Shown here: positions 6,870-17,327 of the stretch, piece by piece
Position numbering within the stretch: the first letter of the stretch is position 1
Layout: every line of letters begins with the position of its first letter
Origin: Fibrobacter succinogenes
Lineage (GTDB): Bacteria; Fibrobacterota; Chitinivibrionia; Chitinivibrionales; Chitinivibrionaceae
NCBI GenBank assembly: GCA_020726425.1
Contig: DYSA01000003.1
Span: 1-34,638 of the forward strand
Direction of reading: 5' to 3'
DNA: 34,638 nucleotides
Notes under the pieces: model-generated
Told to the model about the DNA's origin: nothing
Seen by the model: only the letters and a program-made list of their open reading frames with translations
Database searches by the model: none
Made by a program: the position numbers and the translations under genes

Positions 6870-7978
6870 TTCTCTTTGCCTTTCGGAAGTATCGATATTC
6901 CTTTCCATTTTGGTGAAACAAAGAATAGAGCGGGAAGTAAAATCAGTGATTCCACGAGAAATAGAATGAAAAATAGCGGAATGAACACACCCCTATGGAT
7001 TGGTATAATTCTTTTAAATTCAAGTATGTAAAGTAACCATGTCAAAATTCCACCGGCAATCGCTGTAATCGAAAGAAGAGTGTTCGCGTTATATGTGAGC
7101 GTAAAGAGCATTGCAACACCTTCAAAACCAAGAAGAAACACGATTGCTAAAATTTGTTTTGATTCCGATGCTCCACCTCTAAGCCAGCGAATCATTTGGT
7201 GAAGATACACCTTGGGAGAATCAACGGCATAGGTAAAGGCATGAGAATAAAAAGGTTCAACAGGTATTGGGATAACTTTAAATTTTTTAACAGCAGTCAA
7301 AAGTTTTTTATCTTCAACGATAGAATAACCCAAACCTTTTTGTCCACCGATTTGATCGTAGAGTGTTCGAGAAATTGCAATGTTATTCCCCATGCAGGAA
7401 CTATCAAGTCCCGAACGAATAAAAATATGTGCCGTAGCAAAAAGAAAATCCAATTGCATCGATTGAATTTTTGCAAGTAAGCTCGAAGTAGAAATAATTG
7501 AAGTTCTTCCGAATACAAAGGGAGATTTTTCAACATCAAAATGATCGACCAACGATTGTAACCACAAAGGGGAAAAACTCATATCTGCGTCTGTGAAAAC
7601 GATCATTTCATACTTCGAAGTCATAACACCCGTATCGATAGCGTTTTGTTTTGAAGTTAGACAAACTTTCCCAATGAAATTATTCACAACTCTACAGGAA
7701 AGATGAGGATACAAAGAGATTTCCGAATCAAGAATTTCCTGAAAATCATCGGTAGATCCATCATTAACTAGGATTATTTCATAAGGAATGTGTATTGATT
7801 GCCGTGCCAAAGAGGTGATTAGTTGTTTTAGATTGTGCGCTTCGTTGCGAAAGGGAATGACTACGGAAATGCCATTGGGTGCTTTCTTCGGTGAAATATT
7901 GACACTGGAAGAACGAAATCCCCGTACCATAAGCGCGAGGATAAAAATGAGATAGAGAGTTGCTGCAAGTAGTAACAT
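6863..7978 (-). CDS. family 2 glycosyltransferase with C-terminal TM segments
   Basis: VVIPFRNEAHNLKQL, LVNDGSTDD, TDADMSF, ED and QMIRWLRGG motifs. Hydrophobic N- and C-terminal segments. Confidence 0.88.
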   Translation of the reverse strand: MLLLAATLYLIFILALMVRGFRSSSVNISPKKAPNGISVVIPFRNEAHNLKQLITSLARQSIHIPYEIILVNDGSTDDFQEILDSEISLYPHLSCRVVNNFIGKVCLTSKQNAIDTGVMTSKYEMIVFTDADMSFSPLWLQSLVDHFDVEKSPFVFGRTSIISTSSLLAKIQSMQLDFLFATAHIFIRSGLDSSCMGNNIAISRTLYDQIGGQKGLGYSIVEDKKLLTAVKKFKVIPIPVEPFYSHAFTYAVDSPKVYLHQMIRWLRGGASESKQILAIVFLLGFEGVAMLFTLTYNANTLLSITAIAGGILTWLLYILEFKRIIPIHRGVFIPLFFILFLVESLILLPALFFVSPKWKGISILPKGKEKC

Positions 7979-10900
7979 TACTGTTTCAAGTAGGCTGGTT
8001 TAAATCGATCTTGAAGACCATCAGGTGAAGCGACAATTGCCCAACTGTCAAACTCAAAACCAAGACCAAGCGTTAATCGATTTCCACCCACGGGAGAGTT
8101 TCGATTTAATCCATTGTCCCATCGAAACTTAACAGCAAGTGGGTAGCTGTTAAATGCAATTGTTGAGAGACGCACTTCCGCACCGGCGTGGAACAACCAA
8201 TCGTCAACAGATTTTTCTTTCAGAGCCGATCCGCTATTGGCTACACAAACGCCACCACCATTGACTGCTCCAAACAGTTTATCAAGGTAAATAAACCCAA
8301 TTTTTTTGTCGATTTCACCTTTGAAAAGAGGAAACCGATAGGATCCATTAATTCCAATTATTGCCTTTCCCCCTGCGATAATCGAATCATTTGCAATGTA
8401 AACCGTATCGACCTTATCAAAATCAGACTTGTCTGAGTGTAGTAAATAGCGTGTTGAATCTGCTTGATAGTAGTAAGCATATCCCGGAACTTGAACAGCG
8501 GGAAGATACAAACCGGGGAATTTTGCACTATTTAAAACAGATTCAATCAGATACGAACCAGAAATACCCCACTCAAAATCAATCTTAGGATTGAGATATG
8601 ATGATCGGGCATTTTTTATGATACCCTTGATCAGATGATATTTGAAATTATCATAGTTTTCTTTGATACGTCCATCTTCGACAACAATTGGTTCATCCGG
8701 ATTGACAAATTTCGCAATATCATATTCATATTGTGCCTTAGCAACAAAACGATGAGGTGAGATTGCATGGTTGCGAGTAAAGTCTTCTTTAGAATGAGAT
8801 GCCACCAAACCATTTCTGTACGATACGGATGGATCATAGTTGAGATAGAGTTCATTTCCAGAACCAATATTGATCTGAACTTTGTACCGAAAAAGTGATG
8901 TATAGTAATCAAGGTCTATTGGTCCAATCGGATAGCTGATTTGCAGGTCAGCCATAGTTGGTTGAATTGAATAGTTTGTAAACTCTAGTGTGTCATAACC
9001 ATAGGAGTTATGAACAAATTTGCTCGTCGAAGGAATATTGCGAGTGAACCATGAAAGTTGCAAATCAAACGGAAAAACTTGCGTTGCTCCTAATACACCC
9101 ATGTCAGTGGCGAATCGCTTAGAAGCCGATTTGTCTTTTCGTATTTCACTGAACTGATTAAAATATGATTCAGTTAAAAAGAAAAATAGCAACTGATTTC
9201 CGCGTTCTGTCCAAAATAATGGATCCATAACTCCAGCAATTGCTCCATATTTAGTACTTCGGACCCCTTCGAATGCATTGTCATCTTTTGAAAGCAACTC
9301 TTCAGAAATTATAGTGGGGATAATCATTGCTTTGCGTGGAAATCGGCTATACTTTGATGGAATTCCACCAACCAGTTCTGTTTTGGGGGAGTATCCAGAA
9401 CGAATACTAATTTTGGCTATTTCACTGGAGAGTGGATAGACTGAATCTTGTAATTCAATAGCATAGCCATCTGCGGTATATGCAGAGTAGAGCAATCGTG
9501 ATTCGTCATTAGAAATGTCCGGAGTAAATGCTCCTCCAACGACATTAGTAACTTTTTCAACGGTGTTAGTAGCAAAATTAAGTCTGAAAATATTGAACAC
9601 ATAATGTTCTTTATTCGATGAATAATAGAGATTTTTTGAATCAGAAGAAAAACGAGGATCGCGAGAGTCGGCGATGGTATCCTCGATTGTGTACATGGTT
9701 GAATCTGTAAGATCATACCAGCCAATTTTTCGGTTATTTCTGTCGAGATATCCCAGAGCTATTTTTGAGCCATCATTAGACCAATCAAGAGAATAGATTG
9801 AGTGAATCGCCAACGTATCATTCAATGGATTTGGGTAAATTGGTTTCAAATCGCTTCCATCGGCATTTGAAAAATAGAGCGAAGCGCGATCCTGTTCTTG
9901 ATGCACCGACGCAATTTGTTTGCCATCAGGAGAGTAGACCGCATAAAGAAGGTTTGCCATTTCAGAAAGGCGAGTCCGCTCACTTTTTCGATATTTTACT
10001 TTTTCAACAGTATCGGATGGAAGGGGATAGGTGTACATATCCCACTTCTTTTTACCATTTCGGTTAAAATATTTCCCATTGATAGGTGCGCTTGGAATTG
10101 TGTAGAGAACTTCCGCGCTGTCGGGGTTAAGAGCATAAAAACCATGGATAGCAGATACTTCTTCGCGGAAAGAGAGAGAGTCTGCTACCGTGTCTAAAAG
10201 ATTGTAACTGTAGAGAAACATCCGAGGATGTTCTTTTTCTTCATTTGAAAGAAAGAATATTTTCTTCTCATTATTACTAAATTTTGGCCAAAAATTGTTG
10301 TATCCATTTTTGTTAATCACTTGTGAAACAGTGGTATCACCAAGTTGAGAAAGTTGTGTAGTATATTCTCTTTTAAGGTGTTGTGACCATTCGGTATAAA
10401 GTTCTCTCCCAGAAATGCCAAGAACTCGTTTAATAGCATTATCAAATACGAGTCTTCCAAACCGAGAAGATTCTTTACAAATCGCAATGACTTTGTCGTA
10501 TCCATAGGTTTCAGAAATGTATTTAACTAATGAAAAACCATGATTATAGGTCTTTTCGTAATTATCGAATCGACCATTAAATACAGAAATCTGATCCCAT
10601 GTCTGCAACTTATCGTTGAGAACTAGCTGGCGGAATATCATATCGCGATGAGAATCCCACGAGTCTCCGTGTTGCATAGTACTTTCATACTGAGCAATTC
10701 CTTCAAAAAACCACGGAGGAAGTATTTCTGACGGATATATATAGAGAAGTTCGGTCTTTTTCTGAGTGTTTGCGTGTTGAAACGATCCCGCTTGAATATA
10801 GGGCATCCAAGAAGGCATTTTAAAACTAGTCGATATCGAAACAATATGTGCGTATTCATGGGCAACTACATTTTCTAACCAATTGGGGCTTCCGCGAAGA

Positions 10901-11250
10901 TTCCAGTCAAAATCGTGAACCCAAATTCCAATTGTATTCTGAATCGCTAAAGCCCAACCGTTACTGATGTACTCATCTGATACAATAACCTCTGTTTTAT
11001 TAGGAAGAGTTAGTCCATACTTGTAGCGATAGTTAGAGTAAAGATTTTCACATATAGTAGCAATTTCTCGAGCCTGCCGTTCAAGATTTTCTTCATAATG
11101 AACCTGAAAGTGATCTGTTTCAATGGTTTTATTTTTTTCAACGAAAATTCGTTTAAATTTTTGAGCGACTAATGCTTCAGACTCTTTTGCTTCTAAAGTA
11201 GAAAACAGTAAAGTGAGAAACACGAGTATCAATGTATGCAATTTGCTCAT
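7978..11250 (-). CDS. peptidase MA-like metallopeptidase with TolB-like WD40 propeller and C-terminal outer-membrane barrel-like region
   Basis: Signal peptide; HEYAH (10846-10860) followed by PPWFFEGIAQYES; repeated YSPDGKQIASV / WSNDGSKIALGY / FSSDSKNLYYSS blades; beta-rich C terminus. Confidence 0.78.
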   Translation of the reverse strand: MSKLHTLILVFLTLLFSTLEAKESEALVAQKFKRIFVEKNKTIETDHFQVHYEENLERQAREIATICENLYSNYRYKYGLTLPNKTEVIVSDEYISNGWALAIQNTIGIWVHDFDWNLRGSPNWLENVVAHEYAHIVSISTSFKMPSWMPYIQAGSFQHANTQKKTELLYIYPSEILPPWFFEGIAQYESTMQHGDSWDSHRDMIFRQLVLNDKLQTWDQISVFNGRFDNYEKTYNHGFSLVKYISETYGYDKVIAICKESSRFGRLVFDNAIKRVLGISGRELYTEWSQHLKREYTTQLSQLGDTTVSQVINKNGYNNFWPKFSNNEKKIFFLSNEEKEHPRMFLYSYNLLDTVADSLSFREEVSAIHGFYALNPDSAEVLYTIPSAPINGKYFNRNGKKKWDMYTYPLPSDTVEKVKYRKSERTRLSEMANLLYAVYSPDGKQIASVHQEQDRASLYFSNADGSDLKPIYPNPLNDTLAIHSIYSLDWSNDGSKIALGYLDRNNRKIGWYDLTDSTMYTIEDTIADSRDPRFSSDSKNLYYSSNKEHYVFNIFRLNFATNTVEKVTNVVGGAFTPDISNDESRLLYSAYTADGYAIELQDSVYPLSSEIAKISIRSGYSPKTELVGGIPSKYSRFPRKAMIIPTIISEELLSKDDNAFEGVRSTKYGAIAGVMDPLFWTERGNQLLFFFLTESYFNQFSEIRKDKSASKRFATDMGVLGATQVFPFDLQLSWFTRNIPSTSKFVHNSYGYDTLEFTNYSIQPTMADLQISYPIGPIDLDYYTSLFRYKVQINIGSGNELYLNYDPSVSYRNGLVASHSKEDFTRNHAISPHRFVAKAQYEYDIAKFVNPDEPIVVEDGRIKENYDNFKYHLIKGIIKNARSSYLNPKIDFEWGISGSYLIESVLNSAKFPGLYLPAVQVPGYAYYYQADSTRYLLHSDKSDFDKVDTVYIANDSIIAGGKAIIGINGSYRFPLFKGEIDKKIGFIYLDKLFGAVNGGGVCVANSGSALKEKSVDDWLFHAGAEVRLSTIAFNSYPLAVKFRWDNGLNRNSPVGGNRLTLGLGFEFDSWAIVASPDGLQDRFKPAYLKQ

Positions 11251-14200
11251 TTAATTTGCCCCCGCAGAACGGCCATTTTCCAGAATTTAATGTCGGTTGA
11301 CGACGGGAACGTAACTTCGAGTCGACAGGTATAAGGTGCTGATCCCATGAGTGATAAATCTTTGAAGAGATACTCATTAATGCCTCTCTCAGACGGAACA
11401 GCTTCTTCAAAAATGAGGCGTCCTTCCGCTGTATAAATCGACAATCGTGAAGAAGTTGCTTTTTGTCCGAGTTTATATCTGAAAGAGAGTCGAGCGCTGT
11501 TGTCCGTGATCCGAAGTGGATTAGGATAGGTATAGAAATTTGAGATAGAAGCGGAACCTTCACCTGAAACAGGAACACCTGTCAGTGAGAATGTTCTTGC
11601 GGGGTTTCCTCCTGCCATACTCCAGATCGTCTTTTTTATCAGTGACGTACCGATTTTCCACGAGTGGAGATAGCCGTTATCAGAAAATGCGAACAATGAG
11701 GTTTCACCAGTTTCCGAAGTTATTGCAACAGGAGACGTATATACGGGGCTACCCATTGTCAAAGGCCAAGGAGAGAATGATTTCTTTCCTGCAGAAAATG
11801 TTTGCAAAAGAGTATCTGGTCTTTTTCCATCACTGCCACGTGCATCAATCATCCCACCTGGCATTATATATGGAACAATCATTGAATCATTCTGTTTGAG
11901 AATAGTGTCGTAGAGATTTAAAGAGTCTAATTCATTAAGACTATCTGAATATCCATCGGAAGTATTGAAATATGCAACATATTTACCGGGATGTTTCTTA
12001 TCCACACCCGTTGAAATAACCTTTGATATTTCATAGGTAAGTCTATTTCCTGTTGGAGTAGCAAACAGTGTCAGTACTTGTCCTTTAGAATCAGTGCATG
12101 TGATAGGAGATGTAACAACAGATCGACGCATACGCCAATTGTTGCGATCCATCAGCGCGGGCCATCCGGGAATCATAATCCCTCGGTGATTGAACACGTA
12201 GATCCCATTGCTTCCTGGTATAATAATTTCAATTGTTCCATCTCCATCGATATCAGATAGTGATGGAAATGCACCATTTTTCGGAAGTTTATCACGACCT
12301 GTACCTTCGTGAAATATCCCGGACCAATCATTAGCAAAAAGAGTAAAGGCTGTTTGTGGGTGCGGTTTCAGTGTCCCATTTTGAGGATCATATTGACAAA
12401 GAAAGAGTCCTTGGCGCGAATCGGTAACCGCAATCTCAACAGTTCCATCTCCATTGAGATCACCGGAAACAATTGAAAATGGAGGATAGAGTTGAACATT
12501 AGATTCTTTTGAAAGTGAAAGAGGAACTGATGGCTTTTTGCCATTGAACACATAGAGATTTCCAGTAAAAGTGACTGCACTGAGGACACTTCCGGTAAAT
12601 GAAAATGCTTGCACAGATCCGCTATCTGAAAGCAACACAACGGTATCGATGGTTGATTTTGAGCCAAAGAGTATCGAGCCATTACTGCCACCGACAACCC
12701 AGTTGGCCCCTGTTAATCCGCAGATTGGTGATGTTAGCGTGTGTTTTGTATCAATTTCAATTTTTGAAATACCAGTTCCCGCTGCAATTGAATTGTACCG
12801 GTAAATAATCCCTGTTTTTGTAGGAATAAATAAAGATTTATCACAATAAGTAGGGAACGTGTACACGGTACTCAAAGAGTCAGAAAAATAGAGAGTGTCA
12901 AAAAGCGTATCTGAAATCCCCTTAACAACTGTTGGACGCATGGTTGGAACAATTGAATATTTAGATGAATCAGGGAAGATTACACCATCTTGACTCATAA
13001 TGGTAAGCCTACCAAGAGAGTCGAGTACTATGAGCTGAGGTTCATTTACTCCAGCTATATCACCCATCAAGAGATCAAATGGGGCTGCTACGGAAACTCT
13101 TCGAGGTCCGTTTCCTGAAATTTCAACAGAGTATGCTGATGTTGGTTTTACCGAAAAGGAAAGTGATGTATCTACATAATTATAAATAAAGTAGTCATGA
13201 AATTTATTTGTTTCATCGTTGCTTCGTTGAAGTCGATATTTTTCGCGAGTTGGTGAAGAACTAGAATCAAAGAACATTTCAAGAAAACTGTTCCCGCCAT
13301 CATTTGCAAGAGTGGATGGAGAGTTGACTGGAGTCATTTCATTGTGAACAGCTCGATCCGCGGTTTTGCGAGATTCCGTGCGATGTGGAAACAGATCATC
13401 GGCTGTTCCATTTCCGTACGAAGTTCCTAATACGGATTGATATTTTGCACCAATATCAACCACGCCATCAGCTTCTTCAAGAGAAACACCGCGCATATTT
13501 GGATCACTATTGAGGAAATTATAGCGCAATCGATTTGAAATCAGTGATTCATCGATATGCCATACCGCAAATCCTGATCCCGCAATACCAATATCTTGAG
13601 ATTTTACTTGTTGAACGACTTTTCTTCGGTCCGTAGGAGTAATAACGGCCTTTGACAGATTTACCGAATTATCATTCTGGATATAGACAATCCCATCGGT
13701 TGTGTCATAGTTAAATAGCAATGAATCTTTAGTGAGATTTCTTTGGCGATTTTCAACTAACCAATATTCGTGGCTGTTGATGGGAACTAACGCCATGGTA
13801 GAACCACTCAATTGACCAACCGCATTTAAGGCAATCGGTGCATCATTCTGAGCGATAATTGGAGTGTCCCATCCCATGAATAATCGCGTCCATGCTGAAG
13901 GATTTGGAGGTATAAATCCGCTGGCCGCAGAATAACCTTCAAAATCCATTATCCCAAACCGACCAATTCCAGTAACTCCTTCGACCCGTGAATAAAGATC
14001 AGGTATTCCGATCTGTCGAGCGAATTGATTAACCAAAATACCGTGCGTTCCGTAATTCAGTGAGTCCTGATTAGAAGTTTCTGAAATCATCATTACTTCA
14101 GAAATGACCCCTTTTTTCCCTCCATAGCCAATGAAAGACATGCCAATCCGGCCATTGATAGAATCGAGTTTTTCGCCAAAGATATTGTTTCCAGGACGAC

Positions 14201-15026
14201 TAAAGTATGAAAACTGATCTTCGGTTATAAAGTTATCCGTCAAATCAGATGGTGAGTCACCATTGCGATCGGTGAGTTTTGATGCACCGGCATGAATCAA
14301 AAGGATAACCGCTTTTGTTACGGGATTTCCTGTAGAATCAACTTCCCAAAGTGTTCCTGTTGAATCCATTGAAATTTTCCCAAATGGATGCCCCAGTGTG
14401 CTATTAGCAGAAGTATCCGCATTTGAATATGATAATGCATCTCGAATAAACTCCATCATCAGGCGATTAACACGGAGATTGTAATCGGTGTACGTCTCTT
14501 TATCCCCTTTATTACCAGGAGAATAGAGAGCCATTTTGCGCGGTAGAACATACGCACTATTTTCCGAAGAGCCATAGGGGAAAATTTCATAAGGAACTGA
14601 TAGATTACCTTTTGAAACGGTATTATAATACGAGATAAGATAATCTAACTGATGGGAAAAATAAACCGAGTCATGTGGAAGGAGGTCGAAAGAATATCCA
14701 CCCTTGGTATACCATTCACGCTCTTTTTGATCTTTAAATGTGTAATTTGTGTCATTGGTTTGCCAGATCCCAAAACGCCCATTCCCTGTTGTATTCTGAT
14801 CCTTATCAGCTTGAAAGGCAACGCGAATGGCGATAACTTTAACCGTATCCTTTTGAGCTTGACGTCCAACATACAGATACGAATAAGGTGTAGATCCTAA
14901 TGATCGAGTCGCCCGCAATAGATCAAATCGCGAGTGGCCATGATTTGTTACTTGTGTGGGATCTGATGCAAAAATCAGGACTGAACTACAAATGGCAGTA
15001 ACTGGAACCAAGCGATTCAGTTTCAT
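11247..15026 (-). CDS. M6-family (immune inhibitor A-like) metallopeptidase homologue, probably inactive, with FG-GAP-like repeats and C-terminal sorting-like domain
   Basis: ILLIHAGASKLTDRNGD, IGIPDLYSRV...IGRFGIMDFEGY...PSAWTRLFMGW match the M6 core. DLNGDGTVEIAVTD and DIDGDGTIEIIIPG repeats. C-terminal YPNPLRI..LSIYTAEGRLIFEE resembles T9SS/FlgD-Ig-like domains. No HExxH found. Confidence 0.78.
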   Translation of the reverse strand: MKLNRLVPVTAICSSVLIFASDPTQVTNHGHSRFDLLRATRSLGSTPYSYLYVGRQAQKDTVKVIAIRVAFQADKDQNTTGNGRFGIWQTNDTNYTFKDQKEREWYTKGGYSFDLLPHDSVYFSHQLDYLISYYNTVSKGNLSVPYEIFPYGSSENSAYVLPRKMALYSPGNKGDKETYTDYNLRVNRLMMEFIRDALSYSNADTSANSTLGHPFGKISMDSTGTLWEVDSTGNPVTKAVILLIHAGASKLTDRNGDSPSDLTDNFITEDQFSYFSRPGNNIFGEKLDSINGRIGMSFIGYGGKKGVISEVMMISETSNQDSLNYGTHGILVNQFARQIGIPDLYSRVEGVTGIGRFGIMDFEGYSAASGFIPPNPSAWTRLFMGWDTPIIAQNDAPIALNAVGQLSGSTMALVPINSHEYWLVENRQRNLTKDSLLFNYDTTDGIVYIQNDNSVNLSKAVITPTDRRKVVQQVKSQDIGIAGSGFAVWHIDESLISNRLRYNFLNSDPNMRGVSLEEADGVVDIGAKYQSVLGTSYGNGTADDLFPHRTESRKTADRAVHNEMTPVNSPSTLANDGGNSFLEMFFDSSSSPTREKYRLQRSNDETNKFHDYFIYNYVDTSLSFSVKPTSAYSVEISGNGPRRVSVAAPFDLLMGDIAGVNEPQLIVLDSLGRLTIMSQDGVIFPDSSKYSIVPTMRPTVVKGISDTLFDTLYFSDSLSTVYTFPTYCDKSLFIPTKTGIIYRYNSIAAGTGISKIEIDTKHTLTSPICGLTGANWVVGGSNGSILFGSKSTIDTVVLLSDSGSVQAFSFTGSVLSAVTFTGNLYVFNGKKPSVPLSLSKESNVQLYPPFSIVSGDLNGDGTVEIAVTDSRQGLFLCQYDPQNGTLKPHPQTAFTLFANDWSGIFHEGTGRDKLPKNGAFPSLSDIDGDGTIEIIIPGSNGIYVFNHRGIMIPGWPALMDRNNWRMRRSVVTSPITCTDSKGQVLTLFATPTGNRLTYEISKVISTGVDKKHPGKYVAYFNTSDGYSDSLNELDSLNLYDTILKQNDSMIVPYIMPGGMIDARGSDGKRPDTLLQTFSAGKKSFSPWPLTMGSPVYTSPVAITSETGETSLFAFSDNGYLHSWKIGTSLIKKTIWSMAGGNPARTFSLTGVPVSGEGSASISNFYTYPNPLRITDNSARLSFRYKLGQKATSSRLSIYTAEGRLIFEEAVPSERGINEYLFKDLSLMGSAPYTCRLEVTFPSSTDIKFWKMAVLRGQIK

Positions 15027-15035
15027 CGCGACCTC

Positions 15036-17327
15036 TTATCGAGCATAAGTAATGGAGAATCTGATCTGGTTATTTCGAATGTCATTTTCACCGAGGGCGA
15101 AAATCATACCAAAATCAACTTTTACAACACTTGCTTTTACCCCCATGCCGAAGGTCATTTCCTTGCGCGACCCAGCTTCATCGTGCATATAACCAAGTCG
15201 TGCAGAAAGAAGTTGAGCATACGTAAATTCAAGTCCCGTATGAACAAGAACTTTTTGGAATTCGTCTTTAACTGATTCGTCTGGATCATTAAAAAGATCT
15301 TTACCGATCGCGGTATAGAAAGGAACAGGAGTCCCATCTTTTTCAACAAACACAATTTCGCGATCGAGATCTAAGGCGAGCAAAAGTTCGACAGCAGGTG
15401 TTTTAATTGGGGTGTACGAAGTACCTAATCTCACTGTAAATGGGATAGGATCAGAAGATTGCTGTTCTCCATAATTTACTCCCGGTCCCATATTGAGCAT
15501 TGAGAACCCAAGTGATAGATTTTTTACAAAGAGATTTGTCTTCAAAAGTCCCGCATCAACAGCAACTGATGTTGCCTTTGAGTCTTCAGATAGACGACTA
15601 TACGCATATTTTAAGCTCAGTCCTAAAGAAAATGTTGGTTTAATCGCAAGACCATAAGAAAGTCCACCGACAAATTCAAATGAACTTTTGTTATCATCAC
15701 TCAAAACACCATTGAAATCATAATCAGGGACTTCACCAAAGTATAAATAGTTTGTTTGAACACCAATCGTCCCAAACTCACCGAGAGGAATGACACCAGC
15801 TACAGCGGCGTGCCAAATGTCGTCAATTCCGAGACTCGGAAGAAGTTGTTCAAAGAAACCTGTCGCTTGAATTTCACCACTTTTATATTGACTTACACCT
15901 TCATTAGTAGCTAACCACATATCTTTTCCGAATGAAATAGCCTGATTGATCTCTGAGCTAGGCAGCCCATTTTTCGCGTGATACACTTTCCATTCCGGTG
16001 ATTGACCATCGCGTTCTATCATTTCAACAGCACCTTTATCAGTAGCAATCCAGTAAGATCCGCCTTTTGATTCTGATATGCTGTTGATTTTACTTCCTTT
16101 AAACTGGTATTTTGCCCATTTTTTCCCATCAAAGACGGCTACGTTTGCTTCTGAACCGACCCAGAGGCGATCTTTTGTATCGGTGAAAAGAGATGTTATT
16201 GTTCCCGAAACAGCGAGTTCATCAAACGCTATAGAACTAAATGAGCCGCCACTTTTTCCTTTAAAAAGGCCTGATTTAGTGGCAAGAAAAATTGAACCGT
16301 CACTTTTTTGAGTAACTGCAGTCACTGATTCTTTGAAATCTTTATCAACAATTTTGAAAATACCATTAGAATATTCTGTTAAACCTTGTGATGTACCGAT
16401 TAACAGAGAGTTTTCATTTGGAGCGATAACTGAAAGTATTGTGTCGGAACTTAAACCATCTTGAGTAGAGTACTGCTTCCATGCTCCATCATATTTCCAA
16501 AGTCCTTGACCCTTGGTCGTTGCCCACACTCTTCCGGAGAAATCAGCAAATAATGATGTTGCATTAGTTCCAATTCCCAGATTAAAAGGAATTTTAAGTT
16601 CAAGCATCTCTTTGAATTCTGATGGTTTATCAACGATTTCAAGGATTTTTGCAGCGAGTTCGCTATTGGATTTAGAGTCACTATACTCGAAAATATGACC
16701 GAGAATATCGGTTTCATTGCGTTGACTAACAGGTATAAACGCGAGTAATGTAGAAAGAGAATCGAGTTTATCAGCCGGCGTTCCACCATTTTTAAGTAGT
16801 TCGCGAATTTCTGATTTAGTTTTTGTTCCAATTCCATTATACCGCTGTAAAGAATTTTGAGATGCTTCTACTTCCTCATATTTTTTTAGATCGAGATATT
16901 TTTCAGAAATATCGCGAATCGTTTCACTCGTGTCGATCAAATGAATTGAATATGGAACCCAAGTAGATCCATTGAATTTGTAAATTTCACCGTTGTCGCG
17001 GAGAGCCCAGACAAACTCTTTATCTGAAAGTGCTCTGTTTGGCTTAGCGGTAATGGAAATAAAGTGGTAGGTTTCAGACTCTTTGTTCATCATGTGAATC
17101 CATGATTTAGCCAGAGGTGATTGACCGAGACCTGCAGGGTTATAGAATAGCGCTTCGGCATTGTTTGCAATACCCGTAAAAGTTTCACCCATTCCCAATG
17201 AACGAGCTCCCCACGGAAAGACATACGTTGGAATAGCTGACTGTCCAATTTTTGGTTTTGCAGAGAGTGACATCGCGGCTAGTAATACCAAAGATGTGCT
17301 CATTATTAGTGCTTTTCTACGCTGCAT
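15036..17327 (-). CDS. PorV/PorQ-like outer-membrane protein with an internal two-component-regulator-type beta-propeller
   Basis: N-terminal PWGARSLGMGETFTGIANNAEALFYNPAGLGQ and C-terminal GLSLKYAYSRL..RLGYMHD..ITYAR are typical of PorV/UPF0164-like barrels. Internal repeats such as GRVWATTKGQGLWKYDGAWKQYSTQDGLSSD and DRLWVGSEANVAVFDGKKW. Confidence 0.78.
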   Translation of the reverse strand: MQRRKALIMSTSLVLLAAMSLSAKPKIGQSAIPTYVFPWGARSLGMGETFTGIANNAEALFYNPAGLGQSPLAKSWIHMMNKESETYHFISITAKPNRALSDKEFVWALRDNGEIYKFNGSTWVPYSIHLIDTSETIRDISEKYLDLKKYEEVEASQNSLQRYNGIGTKTKSEIRELLKNGGTPADKLDSLSTLLAFIPVSQRNETDILGHIFEYSDSKSNSELAAKILEIVDKPSEFKEMLELKIPFNLGIGTNATSLFADFSGRVWATTKGQGLWKYDGAWKQYSTQDGLSSDTILSVIAPNENSLLIGTSQGLTEYSNGIFKIVDKDFKESVTAVTQKSDGSIFLATKSGLFKGKSGGSFSSIAFDELAVSGTITSLFTDTKDRLWVGSEANVAVFDGKKWAKYQFKGSKINSISESKGGSYWIATDKGAVEMIERDGQSPEWKVYHAKNGLPSSEINQAISFGKDMWLATNEGVSQYKSGEIQATGFFEQLLPSLGIDDIWHAAVAGVIPLGEFGTIGVQTNYLYFGEVPDYDFNGVLSDDNKSSFEFVGGLSYGLAIKPTFSLGLSLKYAYSRLSEDSKATSVAVDAGLLKTNLFVKNLSLGFSMLNMGPGVNYGEQQSSDPIPFTVRLGTSYTPIKTPAVELLLALDLDREIVFVEKDGTPVPFYTAIGKDLFNDPDESVKDEFQKVLVHTGLEFTYAQLLSARLGYMHDEAGSRKEMTFGMGVKASVVKVDFGMIFALGENDIRNNQIRFSITYAR

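Follow-up and report, generated by a model that had tools for sequence, protein, structure and literature searches.

M6i, a homologue of M6 proteases encoded in the window (the whole 34,638-nucleotide stretch of DNA analysed here), has lost its zinc site, but this loss is not decay: the fold is conserved, and equally conserved is an Asn-Gln-x-Ala-Arg sequence that replaces the zinc motif. After a Sec-type signal come the M6 domain, now inactive, a propeller and, at the C-terminus, a putative sorting domain (Table 1). Because its relatives are found beside sortase genes of the type IX secretion system (T9SS) in many phyla, M6i is probably a non-enzymatic part of the secretion machine, and we favour, with a probability of roughly 0.55, a role at or close to the attachment complex, as a T9SS-secreted pseudoprotease subunit that is retained on the surface and acts together with a PorV-family barrel.

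Table 1. Positions of M6i, its parts and its neighbouring genes in the window.
Feature	Position	Strand	Basis
M6i gene (1259 aa): M6-type pseudoprotease, inactivated, followed by propeller and putative T9SS-type sorting domain	11247..15026	-	profile, model and structure searches
M6 metalloprotease-like domain, aa 57-586	13269..14858	-	hhalign; model pLDDT; Foldseek (4yu6)
NQFAR, aa 333-337, in place of HExxH	14016..14030	-	alignments, profile-profile comparison, orthologue conservation
FGIMD, aa 357-361, retained Met-turn position	13944..13958	-	orthologue and catalytic paralogue alignments
Beta-propeller-type region, about aa 640-1150, with FG-GAP repeat	11577..13109	-	FG-GAP_3; model; PorZ match
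Putative T9SS type A-like sorting domain at the C-terminus, aa 1162-1259 (YPNP ... KMAVLRGQIK)	11250..11543	-	NF052323 C-terminal positions; model; TIGR04183 (weak)
PorV/PorQ-family outer-membrane barrel with inserted propeller, 763 aa, upstream	15036..17327	-	NF033709 PorV_fam, E 4.3e-54; Reg_prop, E 7e-10
MApep, Peptidase_MA-like domain (HEYAH intact) with TolB-like propeller, 1090 aa, downstream	7978..11250	-	profile searches

The sequence-only reading had placed NQFAR where M6 peptidases have HExxH, and profile-profile, structural and PDB comparisons all put it there. In a MAFFT alignment, residues 329-345 of the window protein, GILVNQFARQIGIPDLY, lie without gaps over the stretch GTFAHEFSHVLGLPDMY of catalytic M6 paralogues found within Fibrobacterota, the phylum of the window genome, with NQFAR (nt 14030-14016) over HEFSH and IPDLY over LPDMY. 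An hhalign comparison in which the dead and the catalytic sequences were held in separate alignments (Fibrobacterota only and catalytic M6 only) gave the identical register with a probability of 99.7 and an E-value of 3.6e-26. The family profile matched a single PDB sequence, InhA2 (4yu5/4yu6; E 3.7e-12), whose zinc helix, which reads HAFGHDLGLPDEYD in the deposited chain, aligns to the NQFAR helix. AlphaFold modelling, which had been proposed as a check, predicts aa 50-640 well (mean pLDDT 90.2, pTM 0.92) and places a helix with confidence at aa 328-338; InhA2 zymogen entries were its only significant PDB matches in Foldseek (4yu6, E 1.9e-12).

Most of the details of the sequence-only reading hold as well. 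Its codons for the motif, 14013-14030, are correct, though one codon longer than NQFAR itself; the ORF is uninterrupted over its 1259 aa; the IPDLY, FGIMDFEGY and PSAW..LFMGW elements are all present; both zinc-binding His residues and the catalytic Glu are lost; and a search across the whole ORF found no HExxH elsewhere. With peptidase family M6 (InhA, PF05547/TIGR03296) the window protein shares the fold and the Met-turn, PDLY, ENRQ and HAG elements, whereas its HExxH is replaced and the curated M6 models are not reached, TIGR03296 remaining below threshold (E 2.5e-7; 30.9 bits against a cut-off of 110.8). The register was confirmed through catalytic paralogues and hhalign; PF05547 itself, which had been suggested for the alignment, gave no match in a Pfam profile search.

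The C-terminal half (model of aa 625-1259, pLDDT 84.9) is predicted to form a propeller and then a terminal beta-sandwich, with a Pfam FG-GAP_3 match in the propeller-type region (E 5e-7). In Foldseek the best PDB match is PorZ (5m11; E 4.2e-12), but the global TM-score is only 0.12 and a long series of other, unrelated propellers comes next, so we regard the resemblance as architectural. PorZ has in common with M6i a propeller combined with a C-terminal domain (CTD), putative in M6i, and the association with the T9SS; unlike M6i, it is without an M6 domain. Identity of the two is unsupported, as M6i has no match to NF052228 at E-values up to 1 and PorZ-like proteins occur separately in Fibrobacterota. 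The C-terminus matches TIGR04183 weakly (E 0.051; 13.6 bits against a cut-off of 23), and positions 864-1043 of NF052323, its sorting-domain part, match nt 11262-11807 (E 7.4e-10).

In the window, the PorV-family gene ends 9 bp ahead of the M6i start, and the start of MApep shares 4 bp (ATGA) with the M6i stop. Close to its N-terminus, the barrel protein of the window has an inserted propeller of about 400 aa. Full-length fusions of this kind are also encoded at the Zixibacteria loci L157, L161, L168, L174 and L181 and at L115; the PorV of other phyla is plain, with 330-400 aa. MApep, the C-terminal part of which may by eye be an outer-membrane barrel, is a conserved partner gene across FCB phyla; a homologue is present in 61/61 Fibrobacterota genomes.

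Linkage to porU and porV extends across lineages. The upstream gene of approximately 1300 aa encodes the T9SS sortase PorU (best match to NF033707, 989 bits) and is found in 33 of the M6 loci. The order is PorU-PorV-M6-MApep in Ignavibacteria, Rhodothermales and Gemmatimonadota/Latescibacterota, PorU-PorV-M6 without MApep in Zixibacteria and Aegiribacteria, and PorV-M6-MApep without PorU in KSB1 and most Fibrobacterota. In Fibrobacter proper, the gene after M6i encodes a PorK/GldK-type lipoprotein, and PorV and MApep are not adjacent. Fibrobacterota PorU, matched in 61/61 genomes, is located elsewhere in the genome, and the SprA translocon model is matched in all 61 (above cut-off in 58). Within these T9SS-bearing genomes M6i is near-universal, being found in 59/61, usually as a single copy, with the window protein as query, and in 60/61 when searched with NF052323, a broader profile that catches unrelated sorting domains as well. 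PorU, a C25 sortase, resembles M6i as proposed here in being a CTD-bearing surface protein whose gene lies beside porV and is syntenic with M6 in many phyla, but it has a cysteine sortase fold; the window genome has a separate, intact PorU with catalytic His and Cys retained, which rules out that M6i replaces it. At three Gemmatimonadota/Latescibacterota loci with a dead KFFGH M6 (L169:4440-8597, L175:4898-8668 and L176:4924-8676), the catalytic Cys of the adjacent PorU has become Ser (AASQVG); Cys is kept in the 30 remaining syntenic PorU proteins and in that of the window genome.

As a subunit of this machinery, the M6-fold pseudoprotease would itself be a T9SS substrate, exported through the SprA/Sov translocon, and would then stay on the cell surface, non-catalytic and bound to the PorV-family barrel encoded upstream. 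The model for such retention would be PorU and PorZ in the Porphyromonas PorU-PorV-PorQ-PorZ complex; PorA, PorU and PorZ are secreted components that retain their CTD (PMC11285876), and PorV has been proposed as the shuttle that brings cargo to PorU, PorZ and PorQ (PMC8754138). The old substrate cleft, with its NQx[AG]R helix, and the propeller may then provide surfaces on which cargo, the PorU sortase or MApep, the metalloprotease encoded with M6i, can dock. The fold, the lost zinc site, the conserved replacement and the linkage to T9SS genes are results of this analysis, and from them secretion, surface retention, the partnership with PorV and docking are inferred. Against this model stand the facts that gene linkage is not interaction, that PorV and MApep are not adjacent in Fibrobacter proper and PorU is encoded elsewhere in Fibrobacterota, that the window sorting domain is under the TIGR04183 cut-off, and that the TM-score to PorZ is low. 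The available portions of the well-studied T9SS interactomes, which come from P. gingivalis, report no M6i, so that the component, if real, would be dispensable there.

Adhesin and inhibitor had been named earlier as specific roles, for which we found no direct evidence; the genome context favours a link to the T9SS sortase and shuttle genes. Alternatively, M6i might be one more T9SS cargo protein that acts on its own at the surface, for instance as an adhesin or as a scaffold that binds polymers, its gene staying with porV only incidentally. We consider this unlikely, although it is the most serious of the alternatives: the C-terminal domain is of the cargo type, FG-GAP/propeller repeats are typical of surface binding proteins, and in Fibrobacter M6i is not beside porV, but near-universal presence in the phylum, and a position beside porU-porV in many phyla of differing lifestyles, would be unusual for a lifestyle-dependent adhesin.

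Search patterns that leave out the zinc site, run over 84,980 species genomes, returned relatives distributed across the FCB superphylum. HEFxH (e.g. HEFGH) is kept in Zixibacteria, WOR-3 and Aegiribacteria/Fermentibacteria, whereas the same site reads LxxGx in KSB1/Calditrichota, KFFGH in Gemmatimonadota/Latescibacterota, mostly SxxxS-like residues in Ignavibacteria/Rhodothermales/Chlorobi, and NQx[AG]R in Fibrobacterota. In a tree computed without the motif columns, the NQxxR, LxxGx and xxxxS signatures each form one side of a branch, KxFGH falls at two places, and parsimony requires at least three changes between the active and dead states. A single loss shared by all dead lineages is less parsimonious, yet a tree that forces them together, 9.5 log units worse, is not rejected (AU p 0.108); we therefore grade repeated loss of catalysis in the M6 family as likely, short of demonstrated.

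Inactivated M6 proteins in T9SS bacteria are not new as such, since NCBIfam already names NF052323 (T9SSA_dep_M6i) an 'M6-like inactivated metalloprotease, T9SS-dependent'. The window protein shares with that family an M6-like domain without zinc motif, a T9SS link and a similar length, and its match is strong but sub-cut-off (E 4e-95; 319.7 bits against 600), which makes it a divergent branch of a named family. By comparison, an Ignavibacteria relative (L163) scores 966 bits, while the cut-off is reached in 0/61 Fibrobacterota genomes, whose proteins carry a distinct NQxxR signature. Among open-licence papers, none dealing with the M6i family was found, and family M6 is absent from a recent review of pseudopeptidases; neither the FCB-wide range nor the operon position shared by active and dead orthologues was described in any open-licence paper retrieved.

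Gene order also differs with the state of M6. Among loci with room for it, MApep lies directly downstream in 33 inactive-M6 loci versus 0/10 active ones; by dead signature the counts are 15/18, 6/7, 3/4 and 9/26, with all 17 misses of the fourth signature at Fibrobacter-type loci. A strict rule that a dead M6 has an adjacent MApep is thus broken by Fibrobacter, and confinement of MApep to dead-M6 genomes is contradicted by one active-M6 genome (L133) with a strong unlinked homologue (E 2e-52), the other genomes with active M6 having mostly weak matches only. Because the lineages are few and this exception stands, we treat the association as a lead. It would fit a scheme in which M6i regulates MApep, or presents substrates to it, MApep having taken over proteolysis once M6 lost it; the 4-bp overlap in the window, and HExxH kept in every MApep homologue listed and absent from M6i, point the same way, but with few independent lineages behind the association, the genes apart in Fibrobacter and the L133 homologue unlinked, we think this quite improbable. 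On a broader scale, we tentatively suggest, at somewhat less than even odds, that the T9SS sortase module outside classical Bacteroidota has a further conserved M6 subunit, active in the ancestor, which lost catalysis independently in several phyla while beside porU-porV, with MApep adjacent mainly where M6 is dead.

The residues that replaced the zinc site are themselves conserved. Across 67 non-redundant Fibrobacterota orthologues (<90% identity to one another), Q334 and R337 are invariant (67/67) and position 333 is Asn in 63, so that the loss, which the sequence-only reading had proposed to follow through orthologues, is conserved phylum-wide. The Asp of HExxHxxGxxD, invariant across 21 catalytic paralogues, is retained in the window protein and drifts among the orthologues (D39/N24/Y3/T1); the whole zinc site is thus free to go, and the replacement residues are held tighter than the leftover ligand. 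M360 and D361 of the Met-turn position are invariant in the 67 orthologues, the Met also in the catalytic paralogues. Between Fibrobacter species pairs dN/dS is 0.08-0.15 (about 0.1), an estimate that rests on these pairs, the window-L105 pair being too diverged for dS. Motif conservation and dN/dS together rule out relaxed selection, and no sister genome was found that keeps HExxH and shows it, HEFGH occurring only in other phyla. One Fibrobacteraceae orthologue (L138:9860-13303, +) has a HESEH string at about aa 175, far upstream of the motif and off the zinc helix, probably by chance.

Strict conservation of N, Q and R is what catalytic or ligand-binding residues would show, and M6i could in principle still be an enzyme with a different, metal-free or relocated catalytic site; this seems very improbable, as there is no recognisable alternative catalytic motif and other inactivated lineages have unrelated residues (LxxGx, SxxxS, KFFGH) at the same place. 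A protease gene that is decaying and about to disappear would account for the lost catalytic residues, but this reading is scarcely credible given ORFs intact throughout, invariant Q and R, low dN/dS and near-universal retention. The same evidence bears out the earlier view that the protein has kept a non-proteolytic role.

The T9SS has been dissected almost solely in Bacteroidota, and a near-universal, sortase-linked pseudoprotease in other FCB phyla would be a candidate for a missing component. With active and dead orthologues at the same operon position, the M6 family offers a natural series for the passage from protease to structural part. A host in which the role of M6i can be tested is Fibrobacter, a rumen genus that degrades cellulose and is believed to present its cellulases via the T9SS (PMC6851124).
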